64,000 bases of DNA from Pseudomonadota bacterium (lineage in GTDB: Bacteria; Pseudomonadota; Gammaproteobacteria; QQUJ01), in contig QQUJ01000029.1 of assembly GCA_008501635.1 (NCBI GenBank), forward strand, positions 1-64,000. Direction: 5' to 3'. The translations under genes were made by a program, and so were the position numbers. This document shows positions 18,218-35,288 of the stretch, in pieces. The notes under the pieces were generated by a model. It did no database searches, was not told the DNA's origin, and saw nothing but the letters and a program-made list of their open reading frames with translations. Every line of letters starts with the position of its first letter. Position 1 is the stretch's first letter.

Positions 18218-20170
18218 ATGGCCGCATCGCCCGACAAGATGGATCAGGAACAGAAAATAACTTGGCGCCGCTACAAGGATGGCGATTCCGAGTTCGATTC
18301 GATGACCGACATGATATTTCAGGCCAGCTGGACGCATAAGTGCCCGACCTATATTCAGCGCACGCCGCCGTGCCAGGCGAGTTGTCCGAGCGGGCACGAT
18401 ATTCGTGGCTGGCTCAACATCGTGCGCGGCCTGGAAAAGCCACCCGAAGGGATCACCTGGCAGGAATACGCCTTCCAGCGCTATACCGAGGCCAACCCCT
18501 TCCCTTCGGTGATGGGTCGAGTCTGCCCTGCTCCCTGCGAGGACGGCTGCAACCGCAATGAAGTGGACGATACAGTCGGCATCAACTCGGTCGAGCAGTT
18601 TATAGGCGACTACGCGGTGGCCAATAATTTCGCCTTCCCCACGCCGGAGAAGGAGAGCGGCAAGCGCGTGGCCATTATCGGTGGCGGACCTGCGGGACTC
18701 GCCTGCGCGCATCAGTTGCGCAGCATGGGCCACGGGTGCACGGTCTTTGAATCGGCCGCCGAACTGGGCGGTATGATGCGCTACGGAATTCCCGGCTACC
18801 GCACCCCGCGTGAACTGCTCGATGTCGAGATCAAACGCATCATCGACATGGGCGTCGAGGTCAGAACGAACTGCAAAGTCGGCCGCGATATCACCATGGA
18901 CGAACTGGAAAAGGAGTTCGACGCCGTGTTCTGGGCCATTGGTGCGCAATCCGGTCGCGCACTGGATGTTCCCGGCGGTGATGCGCCCAATTGCATCACG
19001 GGCGTTGCGTTTCTCAACGCGTTCAACGATGGTCGACTCAAACACGTATCGGGCCGGGTGGTGGTAATCGGCGGTGGCGACACCTCCATCGATGTCGCTT
19101 CGGTCGCTCGCCGTTTGGGACACATCAAAAACATCCCCGAGAAGGATCGTCCCGAGAACGCCGTAATCGGTCAGGTCGCGCACGACGTTGCAACCACGGC
19201 CCGACGCGAGGGTGCCGAGGTCTTACTGGTAGCCCGCCGTCCGATCGAAAGCATGCACGCTGCCAAGAAAGAGATAGACGATGCCCTGCGCGAAGGTGTA
19301 GAGATCCGCGGCGGAATGAACCCGAGCGAAATCATACTTGGCGAAGACGGCCGTGCCGTAGCGCTCAAGCTCATTCAGTGCGAAGAAAAATCCGACGGCA
19401 GCGTGGTCTGCTACCCCGGAACCGATATCGAGGTGGAAGCGGATCTCGTGGTATCGGCCATTGGCCAGCAGGGTGACTTCGAGGGTATCGAGACACTCAA
19501 AAACAGTCGTAACCTTATCGATGCCGACAAGCACTTCCAGATTCCCGGCCACCAGGGTCACTTCGTTGCCGGCGACATCATCCGCCCGCATCTACTGACC
19601 ACGGCGATCGGTCAGGCACGTATCGCCGCAATCAGCATCGATTATTACCTGCAGGGCAAGGAGATGCCCAAGCGGCCCAAGATCGACGCCAACCATTTCA
19701 GCCTGTTGCGCAAACTGCACGAGGCTGGGCTGGATCCAGAGGAGATTCACGAGCCCACGCACGGCACCTCTGAAGCCAAGTTCGCAGTTCATAATTTCGA
19801 CTCGCGCGCAGCTCAGGAGGTAATATCCGCCGACGAGCTGTATCTCGGCTACTTTAACCACACGCCGCGTCTGCTCCGCGAGGAGCGTCACGTCACCGCC
19901 GACAATGTCTTGGGCGATTTCGGTGAACGCATCGTCAGCCTTACCGAGGAGCAAGCGATCGAAGAGGCTAAACGCTGCATGAGCTGCGGCCTGTGCTTCG
20001 AGTGTGACGCTTGCGTGATCTATTGCCCCCAGGTTGCCGTGTTCCGCGTTCCAAAGAACGAGCGTACCACCGGACGCTACGTGGACACCGATTACACGAA
20101 GTGCATCGGTTGCCACATCTGCCAGGATGTTTGCCCCACAGGCTATATCCAGATGGGTTTGGGTGAGTAG
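18218..20170 (+). CDS. dsrL: DsrL, NAD(P)H-dependent flavoprotein oxidoreductase
   Basis: 650 residues of the glutamate-synthase-small-subunit-like family. N-terminal Cys groups CQASCPSGHD and CPAPCEDGC hold Fe-S clusters. An FAD site (VAIIGGGPAGLACAHQL, ~150) and an NAD(P) site (VVVIGGGDTSIDVASVARR, ~281) follow. The C-terminus adds two ferredoxin-type sites, CMSCGLCFECDAC (from ~587) and CIGCHICQDVC (from ~629). In sulfur oxidizers it couples DsrAB to NAD(P)+ and is essential. GAGGAG precedes the ATG. Its location between dsrK and dsrJ is the Allochromatium arrangement and supports oxidative operation. Confidence 0.97.
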   Translation: MAASPDKMDQEQKITWRRYKDGDSEFDSMTDMIFQASWTHKCPTYIQRTPPCQASCPSGHDIRGWLNIVRGLEKPPEGITWQEYAFQRYTEANPFPSVMGRVCPAPCEDGCNRNEVDDTVGINSVEQFIGDYAVANNFAFPTPEKESGKRVAIIGGGPAGLACAHQLRSMGHGCTVFESAAELGGMMRYGIPGYRTPRELLDVEIKRIIDMGVEVRTNCKVGRDITMDELEKEFDAVFWAIGAQSGRALDVPGGDAPNCITGVAFLNAFNDGRLKHVSGRVVVIGGGDTSIDVASVARRLGHIKNIPEKDRPENAVIGQVAHDVATTARREGAEVLLVARRPIESMHAAKKEIDDALREGVEIRGGMNPSEIILGEDGRAVALKLIQCEEKSDGSVVCYPGTDIEVEADLVVSAIGQQGDFEGIETLKNSRNLIDADKHFQIPGHQGHFVAGDIIRPHLLTTAIGQARIAAISIDYYLQGKEMPKRPKIDANHFSLLRKLHEAGLDPEEIHEPTHGTSEAKFAVHNFDSRAAQEVISADELYLGYFNHTPRLLREERHVTADNVLGDFGERIVSLTEEQAIEEAKRCMSCGLCFECDACVIYCPQVAVFRVPKNERTTGRYVDTDYTKCIGCHICQDVCPTGYIQMGLGE

Positions 20171-20182
20171 ATACGGAGCCGG

Positions 20183-20566
20183 ATGATGATGTCCTGCATG
20201 GTCAAACGCTTCACTTCGTTTCTGGCGTTGATGGCGCTGCTGGCAATCGCCGGAAGTGTCATTGCCGCAGAGTCGCGGGTACCGCTGCCACAGCTCAGTA
20301 CCGCGTTGGGGGAGCGCTGCGTGGAAGAGACGGATTTCATGCGTCGCAACCATATGCAGCTCCTCAAGCACCAACGTGACGAGACCATGCACCGTGGCAT
20401 CCGCACCGAGCGGCACAGTCTCAAGAACTGCCTTTCGTGTCACGCACCCGAGCGGCCGGCGGCTGATCAGCAGGAGCAACAACACTTCTGCCGGAGCTGT
20501 CATGTATACACAGGCGTGCGTCTTGACTGTTTTGGGTGTCATGCACGTTATGCCGAGCCCAAATAA
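20183..20566 (+). CDS. dsrJ: DsrJ, periplasmic triheme cytochrome c
   Basis: 127 residues with an uncleaved or Sec-type N-terminal hydrophobic segment (FLALMALLAIAGSVIAA). Three CxxCH heme sites are seen at C83-H87 (CLSCH), C103-H107 (CRSCH) and C116-H120 (CFGCH). C46 in ERCVEETDFMRRNHM lies where the unusual His/Cys-ligated heme of DsrJ takes its cysteine. It belongs to the DsrMKJOP transmembrane complex on the periplasmic face. Three ATG codons in a row begin the gene; GGAG is 8 bases before the first. Confidence 0.96.
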   Translation: MMMSCMVKRFTSFLALMALLAIAGSVIAAESRVPLPQLSTALGERCVEETDFMRRNHMQLLKHQRDETMHRGIRTERHSLKNCLSCHAPERPAADQQEQQHFCRSCHVYTGVRLDCFGCHARYAEPK

Positions 20567-20581
20567 TAGGCAAACCGAGTC

Positions 20582-21340
20582 ATGAGTGATACCAAATCTT
20601 CCACTCCGGGTGCCGTCAACGAAAACCGCCGCCGCTGGTTGCAGGGGGGTGCCGCTGCCGCGATGATCACAGTGGCACCTGGCGTGCTCCTCTGGCGCTC
20701 ACCAGCCGCCCGCGAAGCGGATCAGGCCGTCACGTCAGCCGTACGTTGGGGCTTGTTGATCTACACCTCTCGCTGCGAGGAAAACTGTTCGGCGTGCGTT
20801 GACGGTTGCAACCAGGAGCACGGCCTGAAGGGTCATGGCCGTCCGCAAACAGATGCCCAATGGATACGCAAAATCACACTGCGTGACCCGACTAGCGGTC
20901 ATGTCCGATCGCTGCCCGTGATGTGCCAGCACTGCGAACATCCTCCCTGCGTCGATGTCTGTCCGACAGGCGCCTCGTTCAAACGAGCCGACGGGATCGT
21001 GTTGGTTGACAAGCACATCTGCATAGGCTGCCGCTACTGCATGATGGCGTGTCCCTACAAAGCACGTTCTTTCGTTCATGAAGAACTGACCGATCAGAAA
21101 CCCCACTCCCCTCGCGGCAAGGGGACCGTTGAGTCGTGCACGCTATGCGTACACCGCATAGATGCCGGAGGCATACCTGCCTGTGTCGAAGCTTGCGAAC
21201 GTACCGGTCATCAGGCGCTGGTCTTTGGCGATCTGAACGATCCCGACAGCCTGATCAGCACGAAACTACGCGAACTGGGCGCCACTCAAATTCGCGACGA
21301 TCTTGGAACCAACCCCGGCGTCTATTACCGCGGGATCTGA
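20582..21340 (+). CDS. dsrO: DsrO, periplasmic iron-sulfur protein
   Basis: 252 residues with a twin-arginine type leader (ENRRRWLQGGAAAAMITVAPG), so it should be exported folded. Four Cys groups for 4Fe-4S clusters are visible: CEENCSACVDGC, CQHCEHPPCVDVC, CIGCRYCMMAC and CTLCVHRIDAGGIPACVEAC, the pattern of NrfC/HybA-type electron-transfer subunits. It links DsrJ to the membrane protein DsrP. The start is 16 bp after dsrJ. Nothing unusual in length or motifs. Confidence 0.96.
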   Translation: MSDTKSSTPGAVNENRRRWLQGGAAAAMITVAPGVLLWRSPAAREADQAVTSAVRWGLLIYTSRCEENCSACVDGCNQEHGLKGHGRPQTDAQWIRKITLRDPTSGHVRSLPVMCQHCEHPPCVDVCPTGASFKRADGIVLVDKHICIGCRYCMMACPYKARSFVHEELTDQKPHSPRGKGTVESCTLCVHRIDAGGIPACVEACERTGHQALVFGDLNDPDSLISTKLRELGATQIRDDLGTNPGVYYRGI

Positions 21341-21360
21341 GACAGCGACGAGGACAGACC

Positions 21361-22575
21361 ATGTCGATTACCAAGTTTCGCACCATCGAAGGCAGGAGTC
21401 CGGGCTACCTGGCGCTGCTCGGCGCACTCGGCGCATTGTTGCTGGCGGGACTGGGTTCGGCCTGGTATATGGAACACAATGGGCACTATGTTACAGGCAT
21501 GAGCAACCAGATCGTCTGGGGCATGCCACACGTCTTCGCGGTATTTCTCATCGTGGCCGCTTCCGGCGCTTTGAATGCCGCCTCGATAGGTTCCGTATTC
21601 GGTAAACTCGAGTACAAACCGCTGGCTCCGCTCTCAGCACTGCTGGCAATGGCCCTGCTTGCCGGGGGCCTCGCTGTGCTGGTACTGGACCTGGGTCGAC
21701 CCGATCGTCTGATCGTCGCCATGACCACTTACAACTTCAAATCTATTTTTGCCTGGAACATCTTTCTCTATGTTGGCTTTCTTGCCATCGTCGCGGTCTA
21801 TCTATGGTGGATGATGGAGCGCCGAATGTACCGCTACCATCGGATCGCCGGATTCGTGGCTTTCATCTGGCGATTAACGCTGACCACGGGTACGGGCTCT
21901 ATCTTCGGTTTTCTCGTCGCACGAGAGGCTTACGACGCCGCCGTAATGGCACCGCTATTTATAGCGATGTCGCTATCCTTCGGGTTGGCCATTTTCATAC
22001 TGGTGCTCGACTTCAGTTGCCAACGCACCCATCTGCCAATCAATCACGAAATGCTGCAGCGTCTAGCGCGGCTACTCGCGATTTTTATCGCTGCCGTGCT
22101 CTACTTTACTGCCGTTCAACATCTGACCAATCTCTATGCCGCGGAACATCAAAACGTCGAGCATTTCATTCTCTTCTCCGGCAACAAGTACTCGCAGCTG
22201 TTCTGGATCGGTCAGGTTCTGTTTGGCGGCTTCATCCCGCTGTTAATACTGCTTCATCCTGACTACCGCGCAACACGAGCATGGGTAACGATTGCCTCGG
22301 TGCTCGTGATCATCGGTGGTCTTTGCCAGATCTACGTCATCATCATCGGCGGCCAGGCCTATCCCCTGGAAATGTTCCCGGGTAAAGAGGTGAGCAGCGG
22401 ATTCTTTGACGGCGAGGTGAGCACGTACTCGGCTACCCTTCCGGAGTTTTTACTGGGCCTGGGAGGCGTTGCCCTCTCGCTGCTTATCCTGTCGCTTGCT
22501 GTCAGGGTGCTGCCGTTACTACCCCAATGTCTGGAACCCCCCCGTCCAGCGGGCGAAGAAACGCCGGCCTCCTGA
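21361..22575 (+). CDS. dsrP: DsrP, NrfD-like quinone-interacting membrane subunit
   Basis: 404 residues with about ten hydrophobic helices of the NrfD/PsrC family, for example LALLGALGALLLAGLGSAWY, VFAVFLIVAASGALNAASI and LLAMALLAGGLAVLVLDLG. The LDLGRPDR phrase is a family signature near the quinol site. It anchors DsrO and exchanges electrons with menaquinone or ubiquinone. The ATG with GAGGAC shortly upstream gives MSITKFRTIEGRSPGY; the longer open frame upstream only shadows dsrO. The last 25 residues are polar and proline-rich. Confidence 0.96.
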   Translation: MSITKFRTIEGRSPGYLALLGALGALLLAGLGSAWYMEHNGHYVTGMSNQIVWGMPHVFAVFLIVAASGALNAASIGSVFGKLEYKPLAPLSALLAMALLAGGLAVLVLDLGRPDRLIVAMTTYNFKSIFAWNIFLYVGFLAIVAVYLWWMMERRMYRYHRIAGFVAFIWRLTLTTGTGSIFGFLVAREAYDAAVMAPLFIAMSLSFGLAIFILVLDFSCQRTHLPINHEMLQRLARLLAIFIAAVLYFTAVQHLTNLYAAEHQNVEHFILFSGNKYSQLFWIGQVLFGGFIPLLILLHPDYRATRAWVTIASVLVIIGGLCQIYVIIIGGQAYPLEMFPGKEVSSGFFDGEVSTYSATLPEFLLGLGGVALSLLILSLAVRVLPLLPQCLEPPRPAGEETPAS

Positions 22576-22581
22576 TATGCC

Positions 22582-22627
22582 CTAACAAATTCGGGGTTTT
22601 CTGCCTCCGCTCTGCCCCGTTTGTTAG
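22582..22627 (+). promoter_or_regulatory. Long hairpin in the dsrP-dsrN gap
   Basis: CTAACAAA-TT-CGGGG pairs with CCCCG-TTTGTTAG across an 18-base loop: 13 paired bases with only a two-base bulge. It fills nearly the whole 61-bp gap and ends 9 bases before the dsrN ATG, covering the ribosome site region. It lacks a T-run, so it is more likely an RNA processing, attenuation or translational control element than a simple terminator. Confidence 0.55.
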
Positions 22628-22636
22628 ACTGCGCTT

Positions 22637-24049
22637 ATGCCCCACCTCTATATTTCCGCTACACGTCAGACCTCTGGTAAAACGGCGGTCAGCATAGGAC
22701 TCGTTGCCGCACTGACCGCCCGTGGTGTAGTCACCCAACCGTTCAAGAAAGGTCCCGACTATATCGATTCCATGTGGCTGGGTCGTGCCGCCGATCGGTC
22801 GTGTATCAACCTCGATTTTCATACCATGTCCACGGACTGTATTAGTGCCACATTTGCGCGTTATACCGCATCCGCACAGATCGCCGTGATTGAGGGGACA
22901 AGAGGCCTTTTCGACGGACTTGACCTCGATGGCAAGGACAGCAACGCCGCTCTTGCCAAGCAGCTTAATGCACCGGTTGTACTGGTAATCGACTGCAAGG
23001 GCATGACTCGCGGCATTGTTCCACTCCTCCTGGGTCACATACATTTTGATCCCCAGGTAGCCATTGCAGGGATCATTCTCAATAATCTGGGTGGCACGCG
23101 CCACGAAGCCAAACTCCGTGCGGCACTATCCCGCTATACGGAACTCCCTGTGCTCGGCGCCATCCCCAATGATCCACGCATGGAGTTGACCATGCGCCAT
23201 TTGGGATTGATGCCCAGCAACGAAACGCAGGACGTGGAGAGCCGCATAGCGGATCTCAGGGCGTGTGTCGAATCCCATGTGGATATCGATGCGCTACTTG
23301 CCATCGCCCACAAGTCATCTGCTCCCATGTACCATCCTCAAGCGCAACCCCAACGGCAGCCCCCGGCGCCGGTGCGCGTCGGCATCGCTCGCGATTCCGC
23401 ATTCGGCTTTTACTACCCGGACGATCTTGAACGCCTGCGGGAAGCGGGCGCCGAACTTATCCCCATTAACATGCTGCGTGATAAACATCTTCCGGTGATT
23501 GACGGCCTGTTGATTGGAGGTGGGTTTCCCGAAACGCATCTGGCCGAGTTGCAGGCAAACACCACTTTGCGCGATGAGATCCGATCCGCCATCGAAGCCG
23601 GTTTGCCGTGCTATGCGGAGTGTGGCGGATTGATGTATCTCTCACGTTCAATCGCCTGGAAAGGGACGATCTTCGATATGGCGGGCGCATTACCGGGCGA
23701 AATCGTCATGCATGCCAGGCCGGTGGGCAAAGGCTATACACGTTTGGAGGAGACCCGGGATCATCCGTGGGGCTCGCTGTCCACAAGTGAGCATCCGCAG
23801 ATATTCAATGCACACGAATTCCACTACTCCTCGATACAGGGTTTGCCCGCCGATACGCGCTTTGCTTTCCGGATTCACCGTGGAGTCGGTGTTAACGGCA
23901 CCCATGATGGCATCGTGCACAATAACCTGCTGGCCTGTTACTGCCATCTTCGTGATGTGGGGGGGAATCAATGGACAAGACGTTTTGTCGACTTTATTCG
24001 CCATCACATGGGGCTCGCCCACACTCCCGACGCCAATGCGGGCGGCTGA
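22637..24049 (+). CDS. dsrN: DsrN, siroheme amidase (CobB-like)
   Basis: 470 residues of the cobyrinic acid a,c-diamide synthase type. It uses glutamine and ATP to amidate a side chain of siroheme, giving the siroamide of DsrAB. The P-loop-like start YISATRQTSGKTAVSIGL, the KKGPDYIDSMWL phrase, and the C-terminal class I amidotransferase domain with Cys in GLPCYAECGGLMYLS and His in NAHEFHYSS are visible. No Shine-Dalgarno is obvious: a hairpin occupies the leader, so translation may be controlled. It is the last gene of the canonical operon; dsrR and dsrS do not follow. Confidence 0.95.
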   Translation: MPHLYISATRQTSGKTAVSIGLVAALTARGVVTQPFKKGPDYIDSMWLGRAADRSCINLDFHTMSTDCISATFARYTASAQIAVIEGTRGLFDGLDLDGKDSNAALAKQLNAPVVLVIDCKGMTRGIVPLLLGHIHFDPQVAIAGIILNNLGGTRHEAKLRAALSRYTELPVLGAIPNDPRMELTMRHLGLMPSNETQDVESRIADLRACVESHVDIDALLAIAHKSSAPMYHPQAQPQRQPPAPVRVGIARDSAFGFYYPDDLERLREAGAELIPINMLRDKHLPVIDGLLIGGGFPETHLAELQANTTLRDEIRSAIEAGLPCYAECGGLMYLSRSIAWKGTIFDMAGALPGEIVMHARPVGKGYTRLEETRDHPWGSLSTSEHPQIFNAHEFHYSSIQGLPADTRFAFRIHRGVGVNGTHDGIVHNNLLACYCHLRDVGGNQWTRRFVDFIRHHMGLAHTPDANAGG

Positions 24050-24149: not shown

Positions 24150-25790
24150 ATGACAACAGCCATCGAAACTCAGTCCATACCTAGCGCTGGTCGAAACGAG
24201 AGCGCGAACAGCGAGCCTAGGGGGCTCGGCCAAGAGGTATCGGGCGCTGTCATCGGGTTAGGTCTTGTATTTATTGCGCAGGCCACGCTCGGCTATGTCG
24301 GTTTGTCCGGCTGGCTGGCCGCGGGTTGGTTTCTGCTCGCGCAGGCTGCCTTGCTTGGCGTTGCCGCATGGCTGGCGTTTCGCCTGCTGCGAATCATACG
24401 CCAGCGATACTCCTCGCCCCTGAACGAGATCCGCCGCTGGGCACTGCGCATGCGCGGTGGCAACCTCAACGCTCGTCTACCCGCTGCCGAGGCAACCGCC
24501 GCTGGGAGTCTTGTCCACGACATCAATAGTCTGGCTGATGAGTTTCAGCGCCTCGCTCGTGATCTTGACCGCGAGGTAACCCGCCACACCGAACGCCTCG
24601 CACTTAAAACACGCTCGCTGCAGATCCTCTACGACGTAGCGGCCAGTGTGAACATGGCACGCGATCTCGACGAGCTTCTGACCCGTTTTCTCTACACATT
24701 GGTTGATCTGGTCAATGCTCGTGCCGGTGTGGTCAGATTGCTTAACGAAAATCGACAAATGCGTTTGATCGCCGCGACCGGTCTGGAACCCGAAGTACTG
24801 GAAAAGGAGGCTCTGGTACCGGTCGGGAGCTGTCTCTGCGGACAGGCGGCAGATACCAATCAGCTGCTTGTCGATAGTGAGAGCCGTTCCTGCCAAGGCT
24901 ATTTGGGTCGCTCGGCACTGGACAACACTGCGGCGACCCTCATAGCGGTGCCCCTGCAGTATCGCGGTGAAACGCTGGGAGTCTACAATCTGTTTCTTGA
25001 TCAGAATGTCGAACCAGGCGATGACCTTCGCGAACTGCTCATCAGCATCGGCCGTCATCTGGGTATGGCGATCGAAAAGGCACAGGTCGACAAGAAGGCC
25101 CAGTTCCTCTCCATCATGCAAGAGCGCACCATGCTCGCGCATGAGCTGCACGACTCCGTAGCCCAAACAATCGCCAGCCTGCGTTACAGGGTACGGGCCA
25201 TGGATGAGTTATTGCCAGCGAATGCCACCGCCAAGGTACGGGCGGAACTGCTGCAAATCCGTAGCACGTTAGACGAGGCCCATACCGAACTGCGCGAGCT
25301 GATGGTTCACTATCGCGCCCCCATGGACGAGCGCGGATTACTGCCTGCGATAGAAGATCTGATCGATCGCTTTCGTCGTGAAACCGGCATCACTCTATTC
25401 GTACAACGCGACTGCGGGAGATCCAATCTCCCTGCCCTACTCGAGATGCAGGTTTTGCGCATCATTCAAGAGGCGCTTGCTAATGTGCGCAAGCATAGCA
25501 AAGCGCAAACAGTACGCATTCTCATGCGTTGTACCGATGGCGAATACTACCGTGTTCTTATCGAGGACGATGGCACTGGCTTCTCCAAATCCCCCGACAG
25601 TGGACGGCTAGGTGAACACGTCGGGCTCGGGATTATGCAAGAACGTGCCCAGCGTCTGGGCGGTACCCTCACCATCGAGAGCGAACCCAACGAGGGCACG
25701 CGCGTCGAGCTGACTTTTCGACATCGCCGAGATCCTTCTCATAATCCTGAAAGCAAAAGAGAGAATCATCATGCGTGTGCTGATCATTGA
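24150..25790 (+). CDS. Membrane sensor histidine kinase (HAMP-GAF-HisKA_3)
   Basis: 546 residues. Two membrane helices (from ~30 to ~82) are separated by only a short outer loop, so there is no periplasmic sensor. HAMP and a coiled coil come next (EIRRWALRMRGGNLNARLP). A GAF domain (~165-305) contains VPVGSCLCGQAADT and SESRSCQG, three cysteines. HisKA_3 has the phospho-His in MLAHELHDSVAQTIA (~332), and the HATPase has NVRKHSKA and IEDDGTGF. This is the NarX/NreB class. The gene overlaps the next regulator by 20 bp and follows dsrN by 100 bp. Sensing is probably cytoplasmic through the GAF; the signal is unknown. Confidence 0.88.
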   Translation: MTTAIETQSIPSAGRNESANSEPRGLGQEVSGAVIGLGLVFIAQATLGYVGLSGWLAAGWFLLAQAALLGVAAWLAFRLLRIIRQRYSSPLNEIRRWALRMRGGNLNARLPAAEATAAGSLVHDINSLADEFQRLARDLDREVTRHTERLALKTRSLQILYDVAASVNMARDLDELLTRFLYTLVDLVNARAGVVRLLNENRQMRLIAATGLEPEVLEKEALVPVGSCLCGQAADTNQLLVDSESRSCQGYLGRSALDNTAATLIAVPLQYRGETLGVYNLFLDQNVEPGDDLRELLISIGRHLGMAIEKAQVDKKAQFLSIMQERTMLAHELHDSVAQTIASLRYRVRAMDELLPANATAKVRAELLQIRSTLDEAHTELRELMVHYRAPMDERGLLPAIEDLIDRFRRETGITLFVQRDCGRSNLPALLEMQVLRIIQEALANVRKHSKAQTVRILMRCTDGEYYRVLIEDDGTGFSKSPDSGRLGEHVGLGIMQERAQRLGGTLTIESEPNEGTRVELTFRHRRDPSHNPESKRENHHACADH

Positions 25791-26436
25791 TGATCATGCC
25801 CTGTTCCGGGTCGGGCTCCAGGAACTGCTGGAACGCCGCGGCATTGAAGTTTGCGGCGCGGTCGGCGATGGCGAAGAGGGTCTGCAGCTTGCCGGCGAGA
25901 TAACGCCCGACATCGTGCTGTTGGATCTGCGAATGCCCAATACCGATGGCCTGACTGTGCTGAGAGCCATGCGCGCTGCAGGGCTGAGTATGCCTGTCGT
26001 TATGCTCACCACAAGCAGCGATGAACGTGATCTGGTCGAATCGCTGCGCTCGGGAGCGCAGGGCTATCTGATCAAGGACATGGAACCCGACGAGGTTGTG
26101 AACGCACTTGGCGAGATCATCACCGGTCATACTGTCGTCGCGCCCGGCCTGACCAGTGTGTTGGCCGATGCGGTTCGTTCTGACCACGGTGAGGGCAATG
26201 TGAGTTCCAGTCCTTTTGCCGAACTCACGCCGCGCGAAACCGAGATTTTATGCCATTTGGCCGAAGGTCAAAGCAACAAAGTAATCGCGCGCAACCTGGG
26301 TATCTCGGACGGTACTGTCAAACTTCACGTCAAAGCCATTCTGCGTAAACTTGGAGTGCACTCGCGCGTGGAGGCTGCGGTGATGGCGGTCCAACATGGT
26401 CTCAACCGCAAGCAGGTGGAGATCCAGAGCACCTGA
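25771..26436 (+). CDS. NarL/FixJ-family response regulator
   Basis: 221 residues. Receiver: acidic pair in IIDDHALFR, phospho-acceptor D52 (IVLLDLRMPNTDGL), Thr/Ser in VMLTTSSDERD and Lys in YLIKDMEPDE. Output: LuxR-type HTH, LTPRETEILCHLAEGQSNKVIARNLG followed by SDGTVKLHVKAIL (continuing to LRKLGV). The 20-bp overlap with the kinase gene makes it the cognate partner. Position right after the dsr operon makes the dsr promoter, the palindrome at 24093 and the rhodanese candidate targets; no binding site can be proven by reading. Confidence 0.9.
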   Translation: MRVLIIDDHALFRVGLQELLERRGIEVCGAVGDGEEGLQLAGEITPDIVLLDLRMPNTDGLTVLRAMRAAGLSMPVVMLTTSSDERDLVESLRSGAQGYLIKDMEPDEVVNALGEIITGHTVVAPGLTSVLADAVRSDHGEGNVSSSPFAELTPRETEILCHLAEGQSNKVIARNLGISDGTVKLHVKAILRKLGVHSRVEAAVMAVQHGLNRKQVEIQST

Positions 26437-26945: not shown

Positions 26946-28931
26946 TTACGAGATAACGCGATAAGCCTCTGCTTCGATAAACACCTTCACCAACCGTCGA
27001 TCTATCTTGCCGGCGCCAACCTCCTGGTGAAGGATATCGAGTGCCTGATCTTCGGGCAGGCCGCGCTTGTAAGGTCTGTCACCCGCTGTGAGAGCGTCAT
27101 AGATATCAGCGACCGTCATGATTTTCGACTGCAGCGGTATTTCTTCAGCACCCAAACCCAACGGATAACCCGAGCCATCCAGTTTTTCATGGTGTGCATA
27201 GGCAATATCCGGCACGTTCTGCAGGCTGCCACTCCACGGAATCAGGCTGAGAAACGCGTAGGTATGACTGACATGCGATTCGATCTGCAAACGCTCGTCC
27301 GGGCTCAGGCTGCCCTGAGCCGCAGTTAGATCCGAGAACTCAAAATCCTCCAGTATGGGCGCTTCCTTACCCTCTTCGGTGGGGAAGGTGTAAGAAAGCA
27401 GTTCGCTCAGTTCGGTGGGTACTTCACGGCGTGAAACGCTGGGTTCGTTACTTTTGAGTATCAGACCGAGGAAACGGTCGAGGCGTTTGCGCTCTTCCGA
27501 TATGGCCTCTTCGGTCGCGCGCCGGCACTCTACCAGTTCCTTGTCGCTATAGGTCCCCATTTCGTGCATCTGTATCAACTTTTTATAAGCTCGTCGTTCA
27601 TGACTGGCTCTGGCATAGGCAAAGCGCTGCTGAATCAGATTCAATTGATGAGGAAAAAGCTTTTTCGGTTTTGTCAGCACATGTTCCCGTACACCAACCT
27701 TGCCAAAATCATGCAACAACGAGGCGTAACGGAGTTCGCGCATCTGATCGACGGAAAAAATCGCATCCTTGAGACCGTGGTCCTGTGTACGATCGACAGC
27801 CGCCGCCAGCCGCTCGGTGTACTCTGCCACGCGGAACGAGTGGCCGGCGGTTACCGGGTCTCGCGCTTCTATGGCCTGCACCGAGGCTCTGATGAAGCTC
27901 TCGAACAACTCCTCGATATCAGAGTAGAGCTGCGCATTGCGCACAGCGATACCGGCCTGAGCACATATCCCCGTCAGAATCTCCAGATCGGCCTGATCGA
28001 ATGCCTTGGGATCGGTCGCGTTATCGACCTGCATCAATCCCAACACCTCGTCACCTATCAGCAGTGGAGCGCACATCATGCTGCGAATCGAGAGATTGAT
28101 TATCGAGTCACGCGCCCCAAACCGCTCATCGCCCAAGGCGTCAACCGACAATATGGCTTGTTTATGCGAGACCACCTGTTCGACGATAGTGCTGGAGATC
28201 GCGATCTCGGGCTCTTCGTCGTCGATGCCGCTTCTTGCTTTCTGGGCAATGGGCATCAGTTGATCGCTGTCACGGGACCTGAGAAGGACAAACGCCCGCT
28301 CAGCACCCGGGAAGATATCGAAGATGTAGTCCAACATCTTCTGCATCAGTAGCTCTCGATCGTCCACCGCGCCGAGTGCAACACTCACTTGAGCTAGTGC
28401 CTGCAGGCGACGCAATGCCTCCGCCAGCGATTCATCTGCCCGCTGATCCAGGCTAAGTCGGGCCATGACGCTTTTGGAGGCATCGAGCATCACGCTCATA
28501 TGCGCGGGGGGTGCATCGTCCAGACGCAATCCAGTACGGCCCTGCTCGGGATGGCGACTGAAGACACCGCCGTGAGGTCGGCCCGTTGTGGTCAATCCTT
28601 GGCCAATCATGGAACTTTCATCCCGCTGCACCCGGTAAACCAGCATGGTCAGTGAGATGCGGATCTCATCACCATCCCTCAGGGCTCTTGGCTGCCTGGC
28701 GGGCAACGGCTCACCATTCACCAGCGTACCATTGGTGGATCCAAGATCCTCGATCACATATCCCTTGTTTTCTTTACGTATATGCGCATGCCGACGGCTC
28801 ACCTGACCGTCGGGCAGGGGCAGAAAAATGCGCGGGTCGACCCCCTCCGGCGAGCGTCCCAAATAGACTTCACCGGACAGTTTGAAAACGCGTCCCGCAT
28901 CGTGTCCTTCGCGAATTTGAAGGGTGGCCAT
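26946..28931 (-). CDS. FHA-GAF-HD-GYP signalling protein
   Basis: 661 residues. An N-terminal FHA domain (YLGRSPEGVDP, VSRRHAHIRK, DLGSTNGTLVNG) binds phosphothreonine. A GAF domain follows (~190-340; AFVLLRSRDSDQLMPIAQKA, MCAPLLIGDEVLGLMQVDN). The C-terminal HD-GYP part has the H-D pair in LLHDFGKVGV, HHEKLDGSGYPLGL, and VADIYDALTAGDRPYK, which fits cyclic-di-GMP hydrolysis. Unusually about 110 residues are inserted between KPKKLFPHQLNLIQ and the SPDERLQIESH helix. ATG at 28931 has GAGG upstream; one 12 codons earlier has none. It diverges from the kinase/PilT operon and probably belongs to it functionally. Confidence 0.88.
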   Translation of the reverse strand: MATLQIREGHDAGRVFKLSGEVYLGRSPEGVDPRIFLPLPDGQVSRRHAHIRKENKGYVIEDLGSTNGTLVNGEPLPARQPRALRDGDEIRISLTMLVYRVQRDESSMIGQGLTTTGRPHGGVFSRHPEQGRTGLRLDDAPPAHMSVMLDASKSVMARLSLDQRADESLAEALRRLQALAQVSVALGAVDDRELLMQKMLDYIFDIFPGAERAFVLLRSRDSDQLMPIAQKARSGIDDEEPEIAISSTIVEQVVSHKQAILSVDALGDERFGARDSIINLSIRSMMCAPLLIGDEVLGLMQVDNATDPKAFDQADLEILTGICAQAGIAVRNAQLYSDIEELFESFIRASVQAIEARDPVTAGHSFRVAEYTERLAAAVDRTQDHGLKDAIFSVDQMRELRYASLLHDFGKVGVREHVLTKPKKLFPHQLNLIQQRFAYARASHERRAYKKLIQMHEMGTYSDKELVECRRATEEAISEERKRLDRFLGLILKSNEPSVSRREVPTELSELLSYTFPTEEGKEAPILEDFEFSDLTAAQGSLSPDERLQIESHVSHTYAFLSLIPWSGSLQNVPDIAYAHHEKLDGSGYPLGLGAEEIPLQSKIMTVADIYDALTAGDRPYKRGLPEDQALDILHQEVGAGKIDRRLVKVFIEAEAYRVIS

Positions 28932-29317
28932 TACCCTAGCCTCTTGTTTCCCCGGTGTTAACTTCATGCGTTACTATACCAATCACCCACAAGTTACCAG
29001 AATTGTTAGTGAAACTCGACAGTATTTCTGTGATTTTAACGGGATCTGCTGTCTGGTCGGTGATTCCAACACTATGGTAGAGTAGCCCCAAAGAAATCGC
29101 GTAAGTACGGGCCATTGGAAGGAATTTCCCACCCGTCGAGGGGCCCGACAGACTAAAGTTTCTGGACAGGACGCTCAACTGAGAATCCTCGCACTGGACG
29201 GCTGTGTGGCCAACCGGCCGATTCTCCACTTGTGTTGTTGCTTGCACATCGAAACCGAGACCACCAGAACTGGCCCGTGGGCGGAGTGTCCGAAAACAGG
29301 TAATTGTAGGGATAACA
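28932..29317. promoter_or_regulatory. Divergent region between HD-GYP gene and kinase/PilT operon
   Basis: 386 bp with no supported gene. It should hold the promoters of both divergent units. No sigma-70 boxes or sigma-54 sites stood out clearly. Confidence 0.4.
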
Positions 29318-29785
29318 ATGGGATCCGATAAACTAGTTGTTCCAAAACAGCTCAGCCAGGTGACACTGTGGGTGCACCCCGAAGGGATCGTGGAAGGCGC
29401 TCTGTTTGTCAGCATTGAGCACGACCCTTCGCATCCTGAGGACCCGGCGCAGGTGCTCAATCACACCTCTCCCTTCATTGTGGTGCGCCGCGAAAACCCG
29501 GACGAGCTGCGTTTTTACAACAAGAGTTCAATAGTGCGCGTGCACTATCGTGCGAACGAGTCAACGACACCCGATCTGCAACCGTTGAGATGCACTCTGC
29601 ACATGATGGACGGCAGTCTGTTGCGCGGCGAAATTCGGCGCGAACTGCCACCCGATCGCTCCCGTTTCTATGATTTTCTGAATCTGGAGAAAGAGCGCTT
29701 CGCTAAACTCTATTTGGAAGAGGATCAGGTTTGTTTGGTCAATAAGTCGTATATCGTTTGCGGTTTGGACGAGAGCGTCCGCTGA
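29318..29785 (+). CDS. Hypothetical protein with two related beta domains
   Basis: 155 residues, no signal or membrane segment. The two halves look alike. The first runs VTLWVHPEGIVEGALFVSI to FIVVRRENPDELRFYNKSSIVRV; the second runs CTLHMMDGSLLRGEIRREL to FAKLYLEEDQVCLVNKSYIV. The repeated NKS-x-IV at each end and G-x-hydrophobic strands recall small Sm-like or PilZ-sized barrels, but the family is not named. The ATG with GGG 6 bases upstream is chosen over a longer open frame. It begins the unit with the HEAT-kinase and PilT genes, 56 bp upstream of the kinase, so a role in the same module is likely. Confidence 0.75.
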   Translation: MGSDKLVVPKQLSQVTLWVHPEGIVEGALFVSIEHDPSHPEDPAQVLNHTSPFIVVRRENPDELRFYNKSSIVRVHYRANESTTPDLQPLRCTLHMMDGSLLRGEIRRELPPDRSRFYDFLNLEKERFAKLYLEEDQVCLVNKSYIVCGLDESVR

Positions 29786-29841
29786 ATGGCCCTATCCAAC
29801 ATAGAGCCGAACACGATACTTGAAGCGGAAATCTACTGACT

Positions 29842-32289
29842 ATGGGGATACTGGACGGGTTCCGCATCAACAAAGCGGTAGCAACTATCGTCAAGGCCAA
29901 AAGTGCAGCCACTTCGGATGTTGCGGACGCTGTATTGCAGCTTAAACAATCTGGCGAGGGCGCAACCGAGAAATTGATTGAGGCGCTGGGTCGCACCCGC
30001 ACGCCAGGCACTGTCGTTGCCGTTCTCGGCACCTTTCTCGACAACTCGACGCTCCACTATTTCGCCAATGCGCTGACCAGCAAAGATGCAACTATCGTCG
30101 ACGGCGTCGCGAAAGTGTTGGCCGCGGGTAAGCGTTATGACCCCAACCTCCTGCTCGAAATCTACGCCGACCCCGCCAGCCCTAAAGGCCTGTTGTCCCG
30201 AATTCTTCTGGCCCAGCGCGAACGCCTCAACATCCGATCGCTGCTGCGCTTGATGGGAAAGATCCCGCCCGAGGCGCGCACCGGTGTCTTCCGTATCATG
30301 GAGGAGGTTGCGTCGGCGGAAAACGTTAATGATCTAATCGGTTTCGTCGAGAGCGATGACCCTGTCATCCGGCTGCATACCGCACGCGTTTTACGTCGCT
30401 TCAGTACCGAAGCGGTGCGTGATGCATTGATGAAACTACTCAGTGACTCCGCGAAAGCCGTTCGACTTGAAGCGTTGACCGGTCTTAGCGAACTCAGCAT
30501 CCCAGTCGACATCGAACCACTATGCAAAATGCTGCGCGATGCGGATATGACAGTGCAGAGCAAAGCCATCGACACGATCATACGCATCAATTCACCCGAT
30601 TCCGTCCAATATCTCCTTGAAGTGCTCCAGGATGATTCCGAATATGTACGTCGCGCCGCTGTCGAAGTGCTCAACGAAGTCGGCAATACCAATGCGATCA
30701 AAGATCTAATCACCGCGTTGCGCGATCAGGATTGGTGGGTACGGGTGCGGGCTGCCGACGCTCTGGGCAGCATTGGCGGACCTCGTGTAGTCGAATCGGT
30801 GCTGTCCCTGATCAAGGATGAAGACGAATTCATTCGCCGTTTTGCTATCGAGATCCTGAATTCAACCAAGGACAGCCGCGCAAAGAACTATCTGGAGGAA
30901 GCACTCAAAGATGACGATTGGTGGGTGCGTGAGCGTGCCGTTGACGCTCTGGCCGCGATTGGCGATGTATCGGTCCTGCCTAAACTGGTCGAACTGATGA
31001 AACGCGACAGCCGGGCCGCGCCGGTTGTGATAAAGGCCCTGACAACCCTTGGCGACAGTCAGGCCGTCAAGCCCATTATGGAGATGTTACACAGCGCGGA
31101 CACCGGCATCCGCAAGGAAGCGTTGCGGGCGTTGGCGGTCCTCGCGGATGAGAACAATGTCGACGAAGTCCGACGCGCCGCGCAAGAACTCTGCAACTCA
31201 TCCAACGACGATATCCGTGCTCTAGCCGATACGACGGTCAATACCTTGATTGCCAAGCCGAATGCAGCACAACGCGCCAAAGACATCAGCAGGGAACCCG
31301 TGCGTACTGGATCAACAATGCTTCAGGCGCACTCGATGTTGGGTGGCGAAGTCTCCAGTAGTACCAGTGACGCAACGATCATCGCCGAAACCAAAATGAC
31401 CAGCGAAGGGCATGCAGCGGTCGACGCGATCGATGCGGCAAAACTTAAACCCGGCGAAGTGATTGCCGATCGCTACCGTATTATTCGACACATTGGTCGC
31501 GGCGCATTCGGTGTTGTGGTACTGGTGCAGGACATGATGGTGCATGAGGACATCGTCCTGAAATTCATCACTCCCCAACTCACTTCGAGTGAAGATGTTA
31601 TCAAGCGTTTCGTCCTGGAGATGAAATACGCCCGCAAAATCACTCACGAAAACGTTATCCGCATCTACGATTTCATCACCTTCGGCAGCTCCTACGCCAT
31701 GTCCATGGAGTACTTTGAAAGCCACTCCCTGGCCGCCGAGCTCAAATCCGGCAAACCAATGAGTCTGCAGCGCGCCCTGCGCATTCTGCTGGACATCTGT
31801 TCCGGCATGATCGTCACGCATAAAGGAAATCTGGTTCATCGTGATCTCAAGCCCTCGAACATTCTCATCGATGAGAATGATCTGGTTAAAATCGTCGATT
31901 TCGGCCTGGCCGCAGCGGCTCGCGAAGGTGAGTCGCGTTTGACAAAAACGGGGATCATCCTCGGGACGCCGACTTACATGGCACCCGAACAGGTTAAGGG
32001 CGGGAAGGTGGATTCCCGCACCGATGTCTACAGCTTGGGGATCATAATGTACGAAATGTTCACCGGCCGCCCCCCTTATGTGGCCGACGATCCTATGGGC
32101 ATTCTGTTCCAGCACATGGAAGGCAAGGCCAAGCCGCCGCGCGAACAAAACACCAGTCTGCCCGAAGACCTCGACGCTCTGATTCGCAAGGCCATGGCCC
32201 GCAAAGCCGAAGACCGCTTTGCCAATATGGATGAACTGCGTCAGGCGGTTGCACAACTCCTCGAAAAATTGGGGGATGATCGGGAATGA
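29842..32289 (+). CDS. HEAT-repeat Ser/Thr protein kinase
   Basis: 815 residues. The first ~480 residues form a HEAT-repeat solenoid (repeats such as DDSEYVRRAAVEVLNEVG, QDWWVRVRAADALGSIG, DDDWWVRERAVDALAAIG). A low-complexity linker rich in Ser/Thr (~480-540) follows, then a Hanks-type kinase (~545-810) with IGRGAFGVV, the Lys in VLKFI, HRDLKPSN (~666), DFGLAA, and GTPTYMAPEQ. All catalytic residues are present, so it should be active. No membrane helix, so cytoplasmic. It overlaps the first PilT gene by 4 bp. HEAT repeats probably bind the partner; FHA proteins nearby are natural readers of its phosphorylation. Confidence 0.9.
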   Translation: MGILDGFRINKAVATIVKAKSAATSDVADAVLQLKQSGEGATEKLIEALGRTRTPGTVVAVLGTFLDNSTLHYFANALTSKDATIVDGVAKVLAAGKRYDPNLLLEIYADPASPKGLLSRILLAQRERLNIRSLLRLMGKIPPEARTGVFRIMEEVASAENVNDLIGFVESDDPVIRLHTARVLRRFSTEAVRDALMKLLSDSAKAVRLEALTGLSELSIPVDIEPLCKMLRDADMTVQSKAIDTIIRINSPDSVQYLLEVLQDDSEYVRRAAVEVLNEVGNTNAIKDLITALRDQDWWVRVRAADALGSIGGPRVVESVLSLIKDEDEFIRRFAIEILNSTKDSRAKNYLEEALKDDDWWVRERAVDALAAIGDVSVLPKLVELMKRDSRAAPVVIKALTTLGDSQAVKPIMEMLHSADTGIRKEALRALAVLADENNVDEVRRAAQELCNSSNDDIRALADTTVNTLIAKPNAAQRAKDISREPVRTGSTMLQAHSMLGGEVSSSTSDATIIAETKMTSEGHAAVDAIDAAKLKPGEVIADRYRIIRHIGRGAFGVVVLVQDMMVHEDIVLKFITPQLTSSEDVIKRFVLEMKYARKITHENVIRIYDFITFGSSYAMSMEYFESHSLAAELKSGKPMSLQRALRILLDICSGMIVTHKGNLVHRDLKPSNILIDENDLVKIVDFGLAAAAREGESRLTKTGIILGTPTYMAPEQVKGGKVDSRTDVYSLGIIMYEMFTGRPPYVADDPMGILFQHMEGKAKPPREQNTSLPEDLDALIRKAMARKAEDRFANMDELRQAVAQLLEKLGDDRE

Positions 32290-33386
32290 CAGCGGCGCGT
32301 ATCGATGCCTTCCTGCAATTAGGCCGCGAGCAAGGTTGCTCCGACATCCATCTTGCGGTTGGCATGCCACCCATTCTGAGGTTGCACGGTGAGCTGACAC
32401 CGGTGCGTTATCGTGAACTCGATCCCGATGAGTTGGAGCGACTCCTCGACGAGATTCTCAATGACGAGCAGCGTACTCAATTCAATAAGGGAGGGGATCT
32501 CGATCTGTCCTACGAAAGCGAAGACGCTGGCCGCTTCCGCGTCAATCTATTCCGTAAGGTGGGCGGCCTCGGAGCGACATTTCGTGTCATTCCAGAAGAA
32601 ATCCCGTCACTCGAAAGTTTGAACCTTCCACCTGTCATTCAAAAGTTTACGGATCTGCATCAAGGCCTCGTGCTGGTAACAGGTGCAACAGGCACGGGTA
32701 AAACGACGACGCTTTCATCGATGATTCATCACATCAATCAGCATCGAAAGCTCACCATCATTACCTTGGAAGATCCCATAGAGTTCGTGCATAAAAGCGC
32801 TGAATCACTGATCGTTCAGCGCGAGGTGGGAGTCCATGTGCCCAATTTTGCGGAGGGACTTCGGGCCGCGTTGCGCGAAGATCCAGATATCATTCTGGTA
32901 GGTGAGCTGCGTGATCTGGAAACGGTTTCGCTCGCGCTGATCGCGGCTGAAACCGGCCATCTGGTGCTCGGCACCCTGCACACCACTACAGCCACCAAGA
33001 CGCTCGATCGTATTATCGACGCCCTGCCGGTAGAGCAGAAACTCCAGGGTATGACCTCGCTTTCGCAGAACCTGCGTGCTGTAGTCAGTCAATCATTAGT
33101 ACGCACGCCGGACGGTCGGGGCCGCAAAGCTATTTGCGAAATCATGGTCATGACACCCGCCATTTCTCACCTGCTGATGAGCGGGAAAGTGTTCCAGATC
33201 CCCAGCAAACTGCAAACCGGCCGCGATCAGGGAATGCAGTTGCTTGATCAGGCATTGCTCGAGGCGGTTCAATCGAAGCAGATAGATCCTGATGATGCCT
33301 ATCGTCACGCGGTGGACAAAAAACAGTTCCAGCGTTTCGTCACTGATCCCACCCTATTGCCGACAGTAAACCTGGTGGGACAGTAG
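32286..33386 (+). CDS. PilT/PilU-type ATPase, first copy
   Basis: 366 residues of the PilT retraction-ATPase family. N-terminal PAS-like part GCSDIHLAVGMPPILRLHGEL, Walker A GATGTGKTTT, the Asp box ITLEDPIEF, Walker B DPDIILVGELRD, and the His box GHLVLGTLHTTTA are all intact. Such hexamers power type IV pilus disassembly at the inner membrane. The start overlaps the kinase stop (ATGA), so production is coupled to the kinase. The closest known role is twitching or DNA uptake, but no pilus structural gene is near, and this pair could drive something else. Confidence 0.9.
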   Translation: MTAARIDAFLQLGREQGCSDIHLAVGMPPILRLHGELTPVRYRELDPDELERLLDEILNDEQRTQFNKGGDLDLSYESEDAGRFRVNLFRKVGGLGATFRVIPEEIPSLESLNLPPVIQKFTDLHQGLVLVTGATGTGKTTTLSSMIHHINQHRKLTIITLEDPIEFVHKSAESLIVQREVGVHVPNFAEGLRAALREDPDIILVGELRDLETVSLALIAAETGHLVLGTLHTTTATKTLDRIIDALPVEQKLQGMTSLSQNLRAVVSQSLVRTPDGRGRKAICEIMVMTPAISHLLMSGKVFQIPSKLQTGRDQGMQLLDQALLEAVQSKQIDPDDAYRHAVDKKQFQRFVTDPTLLPTVNLVGQ

Positions 33387-33389
33387 GCC

Positions 33390-34499
33390 ATGGAACCGCA
33401 TGACACCCCAGCCACCTCCAGTTCCGCGATCCAACATCGCATAGACACCTTTCTCGAACTGGTGGTGAACCAGGGGGGATCCGACCTGCATCTGATATCG
33501 GGCAATCCACCTCGGATCCGGCTTTTTGGTGAAGTTGTCACCATCAAGTACCGCTCCCTTTCGCCCGACGAGACGCAGGACCTGCTCTACGAAATCATGC
33601 CACCCATGGCTAAACGTACGTTCGAGAGCGAACATGGTGTCGATTTCGCGTACGAGATCCCGCGCATGTCGCGCTTCCGCGTCAACGCGTTTCGCCATTT
33701 AGGCGGCATAGGCGCGGTATTTCGCGTCATACCCTCTAAGGTCCCCTCGCTGGAATCCATGCGTCTTCCCCCTATTTGCCGGGCTTTATGCGAAAACCGC
33801 AAAGGTCTGGTATTGGTCACAGGGCCCACCGGGTCGGGTAAATCCACCACATTGGCAGCCATGGTGGATCACATCAACGAGTCGCGAAAAGCCCATATCA
33901 TCACCATCGAAGATCCGATCGAATACCTGCATGATCGCAAAAGCAGTTTGATCAGTCAGCGCGAGGTGGGTATTCACACCGAGAGCTTTGCCGCTGCTCT
34001 GCGCTCAGCTTTGCGTGAAGACCCGAATGTGCTGTTGGTTGGTGAGATGCGCGACCTCGAGACCATTCACTTGGCCGCAACGGCCGCCGAAACCGGTATT
34101 CTGGTAATGGGTACACTCCACACCAACGGGGCGGCGGCCGCGGTCGATCGCATGATTAACGTGTTCCCGGCCAAGGAGCAGGCGCTGATTCGAACCATTC
34201 TCTCTACCTCGCTGGTGGGGGTCTTGTCACAGCAACTGGTGAGGCGTATCGATGGTCGTGGGCGACTCGCCGCTATAGAGGTGATGCTTAACACTTCCGC
34301 AGCTTCGAACATGATCCGTGAGGGCAAGACTGAACAGTTAGCCAATGTCATACAGGGTGGCGGCCTGATGGGCATGCAGAGCATGGATACCGCGCTGCGG
34401 CGACTGCTGGATGCCAAGCAGATTACAGGGACCGAAGCGTACATGAAATCGACCAACAAGGCCGATTTCCAGCAGTACTGCGAGGATCCGCTGGAGTAG
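33390..34499 (+). CDS. PilT/PilU-type ATPase, second copy
   Basis: 369 residues, the same family and arrangement as the gene 3 bp upstream: GGSDLHLISGNPPRIRLFGE, Walker A GPTGSGKSTT, ITIEDPIEY, Walker B DPNVLLVGEMRD, His box GILVMGTLHTNGA. It looks like a paralogue rather than a recent copy because many positions differ. Paired PilT-PilU genes exist in pilus clusters and can form mixed or stacked motors, but here they sit behind a kinase. Both Walker motifs are intact so both should hydrolyse ATP. The C-terminus ends FQQYCEDPLE. Confidence 0.9.
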   Translation: MEPHDTPATSSSAIQHRIDTFLELVVNQGGSDLHLISGNPPRIRLFGEVVTIKYRSLSPDETQDLLYEIMPPMAKRTFESEHGVDFAYEIPRMSRFRVNAFRHLGGIGAVFRVIPSKVPSLESMRLPPICRALCENRKGLVLVTGPTGSGKSTTLAAMVDHINESRKAHIITIEDPIEYLHDRKSSLISQREVGIHTESFAAALRSALREDPNVLLVGEMRDLETIHLAATAAETGILVMGTLHTNGAAAAVDRMINVFPAKEQALIRTILSTSLVGVLSQQLVRRIDGRGRLAAIEVMLNTSAASNMIREGKTEQLANVIQGGGLMGMQSMDTALRRLLDAKQITGTEAYMKSTNKADFQQYCEDPLE

Positions 34500-34616
34500 G
34501 TCTATCCCGCATAGGGACATTGCCAGCAATAATTTTTTGCTGATAATGGCTATAAGAACCTTGTGGGCCGAAGAAACAGGACAATTGAGCACAAATAGAG
34601 GCAGGAGTTTGACTTC

Positions 34617-35288
34617 ATGGCAAAGCTGATATTGACCCTGGATGGAGCGGTCATTAAGGAAATTGTTCTGGATCGCGACACCCTCAGCATCGGTCGCCGT
34701 CCAGGCAACGACATTCAACTGAATGATCTGGCGGTCAGCGGACGCCACGCGCTGCTGACGGCGTTGCACAACACCTATGTTGAAGATCTGGGTAGCACCA
34801 ATGGCACGCTGGTCAACGGTAAGAAGATCAAGAAGGCGATCATCAAGCACAGTGACGTCATCCAAATCGGCAGTCATCAGTTTACTTACCTGTCCAAGGA
34901 GGAGGTCGCGTACGAGCCGACCATGTTCCTCAAAGCTGAATTTGAACCCACCATGATGCTGGATACCGGAATGGGGAGCCGCAAGGTCACCGCGGATACC
35001 CGTGGCGGACCTCTGGGCGCGGTCAAGATTATGAGTGGGCCAATGAGCGGGAAAGTTCTGGAGCTGCGCAAACCGTTCAATACCGTCGGTATCAACGGGG
35101 TTAAAGTTGCATTGATCTCACGCGAAAGCGAAGGCTACACCATTCACGGTATCAAAAGCCGTAAACTGCGCCGCGCATCTGATTTGCCCACTGTAAACGG
35201 AACAGCTGTCGGTGATGGAAGTGTTCGTCTCAAAGAAAAAGACATCATCGAAATGGTGGAAACCAAAATGCAGTTCTTTTTTATGTAA
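34617..35288 (+). CDS. Double-FHA-domain protein
   Basis: 223 residues. A clear FHA domain occupies ~20-95: LSIGRRPGNDIQL, VSGRHALLTALH, DLGSTNGTLVNGKK. The C-terminal ~90 residues (GKVLELRKPFNTVG, SRESEGYTIHGI, TVNGTAVGDGSVRLKEKDIIEM) have the layout of a second FHA domain lacking the canonical Ser/Asn phosphopeptide residues. No membrane segment. It follows the second ATPase by 117 bp, possibly from its own promoter. By position it should read phosphothreonine marks laid by the HEAT-kinase; this is inference. Confidence 0.85.
   Translation: MAKLILTLDGAVIKEIVLDRDTLSIGRRPGNDIQLNDLAVSGRHALLTALHNTYVEDLGSTNGTLVNGKKIKKAIIKHSDVIQIGSHQFTYLSKEEVAYEPTMFLKAEFEPTMMLDTGMGSRKVTADTRGGPLGAVKIMSGPMSGKVLELRKPFNTVGINGVKVALISRESEGYTIHGIKSRKLRRASDLPTVNGTAVGDGSVRLKEKDIIEMVETKMQFFFM

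Follow-up and report, generated by a model that had tools for sequence, protein, structure and literature searches.

A conserved gammaproteobacterial cassette of a HEAT-repeat kinase, PilT-type ATPases and an FHA protein points to a possible switching of pilus motors by phosphorylation

The window analysed here comprises positions 1 to 64,000 of contig QQUJ01000029.1 (contig C29 in our labels), taken from a genome of 3.93 Mb that is the sole representative of its order among the genomes compared. It contains a group of six genes in which two PilT-type ATPases, PILT1 and PILT2, are encoded together with a Ser/Thr kinase and proteins carrying FHA domains. The operon runs in the order tandem DUF6812 protein, HEAT-repeat kinase, PILT1, PILT2 and the double-FHA protein FHA2, with the gene for an FHA-GAF-HD-GYP protein diverging from it (Table 1). 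Each of these genes lies where the original prediction, made from the letters of the window, had placed it, and the ATGA overlap of the kinase and PILT1 genes and the 3-base gap between PILT1 and PILT2 that it described are both real. Its remark that no pilin or pilus assembly gene is present is true of the locus; other contigs of the genome do carry assembly genes. The catalytic motifs of the kinase, both ATPases and the HD-GYP protein are intact across their families, and hydropathy reveals no obvious membrane-spanning stretch in any of the six proteins. The DUF6812 protein most likely starts at the ATG at 29318, which has AGGGA upstream and is where the homologues also begin, and translation of the HD-GYP gene more probably begins at an internal ATG, at 28931. 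In the divergent intergenic region no consensus sigma-70 site was found, and the promoter and terminator scan did not rise above shuffled sequences.

Table 1. Features of the PILT1-PILT2 locus, in window coordinates
Feature	Position	Strand	Details
FHA-GAF-HD-GYP protein	26946..28967	-	673 residues; Pfam FHA 4.5e-18, GAF 2.9e-15, HD_5 1e-31
Domains of the FHA-GAF-HD-GYP gene	FHA 28862-28656, GAF 28355-27942, HD-GYP 27848-26991	-	Residues: FHA 36-104, GAF 205-342, HD/HD_5 374-659
Divergent intergenic region	28968..29317	.	350 bases; both promoters presumed here from gene arrangement
Tandem DUF6812 protein	29318..29785	+	155 residues; first gene of the operon; two small beta-barrels
HEAT-repeat Ser/Thr kinase	29842..32289	+	815 residues; HEAT_2 5e-85, Pkinase 2e-52; kinase domain 31474-32229
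PILT1, PilT-type ATPase	32286..33386	+	TIGR01420 432 bits; own clade
PILT2, PilT-type ATPase	33390..34499	+	TIGR01420 452 bits; sister clade of PILT1
FHA2, double-FHA protein	34617..35288	+	223 residues; Pfam FHA 1.6e-20
FHA2 linker, predicted disordered	34917..35003	+	Thr102 34920-34922, Thr112 34950-34952; proposed phosphorylation sites

Both ATPases score above the cut-off of the PilT/PilU model TIGR01420 (319 bits) and retain the typical length of PilT, and the Walker A motif, Asp box, Walker B motif and His box are intact in the consensus of 58 PILT1 and 54 PILT2 sequences. In a rooted maximum-likelihood tree they form two clades of their own (support 100/100 for PILT1 and 100/96 for PILT2) that are sisters at 97/88 and lie outside both the canonical PilT clade and the PilU clade, on a long stem branch of 0.65 changes per column; because the outgroup branches are long, the exact attachment of the pair is uncertain. 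PILT1 and PILT2 share 47 and 49% identity with the PilT of the source genome, and 36 and 38% with PilU. The AIRNLIRE motif of PilT proper is intact in neither, as is also the case for PilU: PILT1, reading tpAIanLI..., has lost most of it, and PILT2, reading A.sNiIREGK, keeps an N-x-IREGK remnant. An apparent fusion of the PILT1 and PILT2 genes (L158/L068) is explained by an open frame upstream of PILT2.

The distribution of the cassette was followed through a reference set of 274 gammaproteobacterial genomes (the class in the GTDB sense). A PILT1-led search (E <= 1e-139, with canonical PilT at about 1e-95 in the source genome) finds orthologues in 34 of these, including all 27 that encode the DUF6812 protein. 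In six of the seven further genomes kinase, PILT1 and PILT2 are present and no DUF6812 gene was detected; the seventh (locus L190 in genome G162) has the pair without an adjoining kinase. Among the 33 genomes whose assembly covers the position immediately upstream of PILT1, 32 have the kinase gene there. Gene maps show the order and strand of the tandem DUF6812, kinase, PILT1, PILT2 and FHA2 genes to be constant across families at 40-70% identity, with short intergenic gaps and with the kinase and PILT1 genes mostly overlapping or abutting; since this order recurs in dozens of distant genomes, the arrangement is not due to chance. Distances correlate at r 0.83-0.88 among kinase, PILT1 and PILT2, somewhat better than the 0.68-0.80 seen against canonical PilT, which is what genes passed on mainly by vertical descent should show. 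By sequence, the tandem DUF6812 protein, HEAT kinase, PILT1 and PILT2 are an ancient, largely vertically inherited core. The original prediction had staked itself on a neighbourhood extending beyond one strain and on the co-occurrence elsewhere of the HEAT kinase, PilT pair and double-FHA gene, and both hold, the kinase-PILT1-PILT2 unit being conserved across the class and the three elements recurring in the same order in other genomes. The named carriers are metagenome-assembled Chromatiales, Ectothiorhodospiraceae and unclassified Gammaproteobacteria. FHA2 follows the core in the main group and most lineages, at times as a tandem pair.

FHA2 consists of one canonical FHA domain, a linker and an FHA-like beta-sandwich, which we call degenerate because Pfam finds a single FHA domain where the structural model shows two beta-sandwiches. 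The phosphothreonine-binding residues (GR/S-H/N) are conserved as G-R, S-G-R-H and S-T-N-G, and the closest solved structures to the canonical domain, by fold and by sequence, are the FHA domains of GarA/OdhI. Residues 101-129 of the linker are modelled without confident structure (predicted local distance difference test, pLDDT, < 50), and within them T102, M103, F104, A107, E108 and T112 are invariant in 37 FHA2 sequences, the motif reading YEPTMF[ILV][KRQ]AE..[DE]T. A protein scan for FHA2 returned 78 loci, with about 45 true relatives; as the scan patterns contained parts of the motif, its frequency among them is biased upward. Adjacency to PilT was not a criterion when motif-bearing FHA2 genes were collected, and in all 69 of these, drawn from 53 loci that include some duplicates, the PilT pair lies no more than 3 kb upstream. 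When the class was searched with an FHA2 profile, every match with E < 1e-96 belonged to a genome that encodes the DUF6812 protein, and none fell between 1e-96 and 1e-58. Thr102 and Thr112 are put forward as proposed phosphorylation sites, and the earlier suggestion that the kinase marks its partners and the FHA proteins read the marks gains in this conserved linker motif a concrete candidate site.

The kinase has eight HEAT_2 stretches and a Pkinase domain at residues 545-796, whose lysine, HRDLKPSN, DFG and APE motifs are kept in 64 homologues; its hydropathy is low. The linker joining the HEAT and kinase parts is rich in Thr, with recurring [DE]-x-P-T or D-A-T motifs that are not alignable, and no conserved alignable Thr was found in it, nor was a conserved Thr found in the FHA-GAF linker of the HD-GYP protein. 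A hunt for phospho-sites in the ATPases found no Thr in PILT1 that is at once conserved and specific, and one in PILT2, Thr273 (34206-34208), which never varies within the PILT2 clade and takes the place of a Glu in canonical PilT. Thr273 is a possible direct phospho-site, where phosphorylation could undo this natural Glu-to-Thr swap by mimicry.

The hypothetical protein with a duplicated domain noted earlier is real, both of its halves being DUF6812-like. PF20660 is matched by 30 of 31 members of the family, at best with 5.9e-7, and by the window copy alone with 0.0038. Its AlphaFold model (pLDDT 84) repeats the same strand order in two barrels. Comparison with the PDB gave no significant structural match and no sequence match, and assignment to a known fold was rejected, the matches to the Hfq-like Sm barrel being weak (E > 0.6). 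Among 398 genomes drawn from the phylum, of undetermined class make-up, the source genome is the sole match to the DUF6812 profile.

Around this core the signalling partners vary. The HD-GYP protein carries the HD pair and the HHE..DG.GYP signature, with LLHDFGK and HHEKLDGSGYP conserved in 22 homologues, and its divergent FHA-GAF-HD-GYP gene is found in about 21 of the roughly 50 loci with sufficient upstream sequence. A PP2C phosphatase gene adjoins the core without HD-GYP in 7 loci and lies beyond the HD-GYP gene in several more, and about 24 loci have neither (in these counts duplicate loci were merged by hand). In an outer branch, a class III cyclase fused to FHA is encoded downstream of the core in six loci (L162, L163, L165, L167, L183 and L188). 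In L163 and L188 an extra open reading frame stands between PILT2 and the FHA-cyclase, that of L163 being retropepsin-like by eye. Because the partners vary in this way, we prefer to think of kinase, PILT1 and PILT2 as the core and of the FHA-linked second-messenger enzymes as attachments. The presence of HD-GYP in under half of the loci argues against it as an essential motor input. Direct control of the ATPases by cyclic di-GMP (c-di-GMP) was rejected: Pfam detects neither MshEN nor PilZ in any protein that the operon encodes, and the ATPases show the T2SSE domain alone. The original prediction thus stands as a conserved phospho-signalling module around a PilT-type pair and is not supported in its claim that c-di-GMP sets the activity of the ATPase motors, the HD-GYP protein being better read as one among several outputs. 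On another contig of the same genome (C10:557.9-560.4 kb) there is a second kinase-PP2C-double-FHA cassette, in which no PilT genes were seen. Since its PP2C is the only one that the genome was found to encode, this cassette could serve the window module in trans.

The source genome encodes a canonical pilT-pilU pair at C10:338.8-340.9 kb, a pilM-to-pilQ cluster at C10:15-20 kb with PilM and PilQ above their cut-offs, and, on another contig than the window, pilB (TIGR02538, above cut-off) with a pilC-type gene. With these genes present elsewhere, PILT1 and PILT2 come in addition to a complete canonical pilus set, a point that the original prediction had overlooked. Beside PilB, the genome encodes a GspE, another ATPase that is GspE/PilB-like, and a TfpB-type assembly ATPase that exceeds its cut-off; the TfpB-type ATPase of type IV pili and the further GspE/PilB-like ATPase, at C18:306 kb and C13:40 kb, suggest more than one pilus system. 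Queries with the N-terminal part of PilB, PilC, PilQ and the pilM-P proteins of the source genome found no pilus gene beside the PILT pair in 82 loci; the matches obtained were a penicillin-binding protein that is encoded next to pilMNOPQ, a weak match in L041 to another open reading frame near pilMNOPQ, and antisense shadows of the ATPases. PilT genes placed beside pilB, pilC or pilMNOPQ without the kinase, which would have spoken against the original prediction, were thus looked for across the loci and not seen.

These features can be drawn together into a model in which a soluble Ser/Thr-kinase/FHA switch would control an additional, dedicated pair of hexameric PilT-type motors working at the pilus base, the type IV pilus itself being built from the canonical genes; we regard the chances of this being correct as evenly balanced. 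The kinase would sense a signal via the HEAT and DUF6812 parts and phosphorylate Thr102 and Thr112 in the FHA2 linker; Thr273 of PILT2 and Thr-rich sites between the HEAT and kinase parts of the kinase itself may be further targets. The phosphorylated linker may then, in the manner of GarA/OdhI, fold back onto the FHA domain or dock on another FHA, and by occupying the FHA site, within or between molecules, could cause the motor partner to be released or engaged. The FHA-GAF-HD-GYP protein, or elsewhere the FHA-cyclase, would read the same marks and alter the levels of c-di-GMP or of cyclic AMP or cyclic GMP, and the PP2C phosphatase adjacent in some lineages would erase them. A role on a type IV pilus is suggested for the motors by their membership of the PilT family and by the pilus genes present. 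More specifically, and with rather less than even confidence, the kinase and the GarA-like FHA protein may turn the alternative PilT-type pair on and off at an existing type IV pilus, such that retraction motors are exchanged by phosphorylation and the FHA-HD-GYP protein or FHA-cyclase reports motor state to second-messenger pools.

Several observations weigh against this model. FHA2 and the ATPases are linked by gene order alone, and in an outer branch (loci L154, L164, L171 and L173) no FHA lies near the core, so that FHA2 is not indispensable in that branch. L190 has the PilT pair and no kinase adjoining it. The likeness of EPTMFLKAEF to ETTSVFRADF, the GarA/OdhI segment around the phosphorylated Thr that is the kinase target (PMC8546545), counts in favour of the model, being reached by 6 of 16,248 Thr-centred 10-mers from other proteins of the loci and so beating 99.96% of them, but the comparison was made after the motif was seen and over ten residues, which are few. 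The EPTMF.KAE segment is moreover C-terminal to the FHA domain and not N-terminal as in GarA/OdhI; the likeness is suggestive and does not amount to membership in that family. PilQ is present in 32 of the 34 PILT1 genomes compared with 232 of 274 across the class, a co-occurrence that is not significant (Fisher p = 0.13) because PilQ is so common in the class.

This last figure, together with the failure of the pair ever to appear beside pilus genes in the tested loci, the long stem branch and the loss of most of AIRNLIRE from PILT1, would fit a hexameric ATPase working away from pili, co-opted for signalling or partition (for example as an unfoldase-like or secretion-accessory motor under kinase control), the kinase/FHA set being its regulator. 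We consider this unlikely, though worth keeping in view: all the ATPase motifs and the PilT length are kept, the canonical pilT-pilU of the source genome likewise lies apart from pilB and pilQ (L174), nearly all of the PILT1 genomes do encode PilQ, and further PilT-family genes occur in all 27 DUF6812-bearing genomes. The additional assembly ATPases of the source genome would be in keeping with a pair that drives a second filament system, either the TfpB-type pilus or the MSHA-like or type II secretion-like set on C18 and C13, in place of the main type IVa pilus, which we think quite improbable. The kinase domain strongly matches the PADLOC models PD-T4-6 and mad6, as might be expected were this an anti-phage defence cassette with kinase and ATPases. 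These matches are confined to the generic kinase domain, the full-length match and the partner genes of PD-T4-6 and MADS are absent, the remaining genes share nothing more than P-loop similarity with defence families, and the module is largely vertically inherited and stable in order; a defence function is thus very improbable, and that reading was rejected. An accidental grouping of independent genes, to which the varying HD-GYP, PP2C and cyclase partners and nothing more would lend support, has a negligible probability and is refuted for the kinase-PILT1-PILT2 core by the constant order across diverged families, the gene overlaps and the occurrence of the FHA2 motif type only with the pair.

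Compared with described systems, the ATPases of the switchable motor pair proposed here most resemble the PilT/PilU pair of type IVa pili (PMC6762196), which likewise comprises two adjacent PilT-family ATPases with intact motifs and an N-domain followed by a T2SSE core. They differ in forming separate clades, in being additional to canonical pilT-pilU, in sharing an operon with a kinase and an FHA protein, and in having AIRNLIRE missing (PILT1) or partial (PILT2). FHA2 has its counterpart in the actinobacterial GarA/OdhI switch with PknB/PknG (PMC8546545), where a small soluble FHA protein with the nearest FHA domain also bears a conserved E-x-T segment, situated where disorder is predicted, and has a cognate PknB-type kinase. 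In FHA2, however, the motif is followed by a second, degenerate FHA, the kinase has HEAT repeats, and the expected target is a PilT-type motor, whereas that of GarA/OdhI is 2-oxoglutarate dehydrogenase. In Bdellovibrio DgcB, an FHA-GGDEF protein, the FHA domain has been proposed to gate a c-di-GMP enzyme via a phosphorylated peptide (PMC6733907); here the partners of the FHA domain within the protein are GAF and a c-di-GMP hydrolase (HD-GYP), and the candidate kinase is encoded next door. The same grouping of kinase, phosphatase and FHA reader is found in the PpkA/PppA-like kinase-PP2C-FHA cassettes, including that on C10, but these are without PilT genes, and the FHA proteins of L076-L078, excluded from our set as such PilT-free cassettes, lack the EPTMF motif.

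A search of open-access full-text literature found no description of this cassette, in agreement with the earlier statement that the combination was not known as a described system, and one set of phrases retrieved no open-access report of PilT or PilU phosphorylation; that the carriers are metagenome-assembled and mostly uncultured may explain why no report was found. The conserved cassette points to a phosphorylation switching of pilus motors that has not yet been described, and bears on the switching of retraction motors. Candidate kinase-substrate pairs are among what it offers, and with the kinase, likely substrate sites, reader and motors in one conserved unit the question becomes directly testable. 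If true, the model would give the GarA/OdhI switch a counterpart in Gram-negative bacteria, one linked to motility. The pair in L190 offers a natural test case for kinase-independent motors.

Elsewhere in the window, positions 11825-24049 hold an apparent dissimilatory sulfite reductase cluster, with two NIR_SIR subunits, DsrK, a DsrL-like flavoprotein and a CobB/DsrN-like protein, which, lying just upstream of the module, points to a sulfur-metabolising organism. Beside these sulfur genes, at 24150-26436, are a HAMP-GAF-HisKA_3 histidine kinase and a LuxR-type response regulator, followed by a rhodanese gene.

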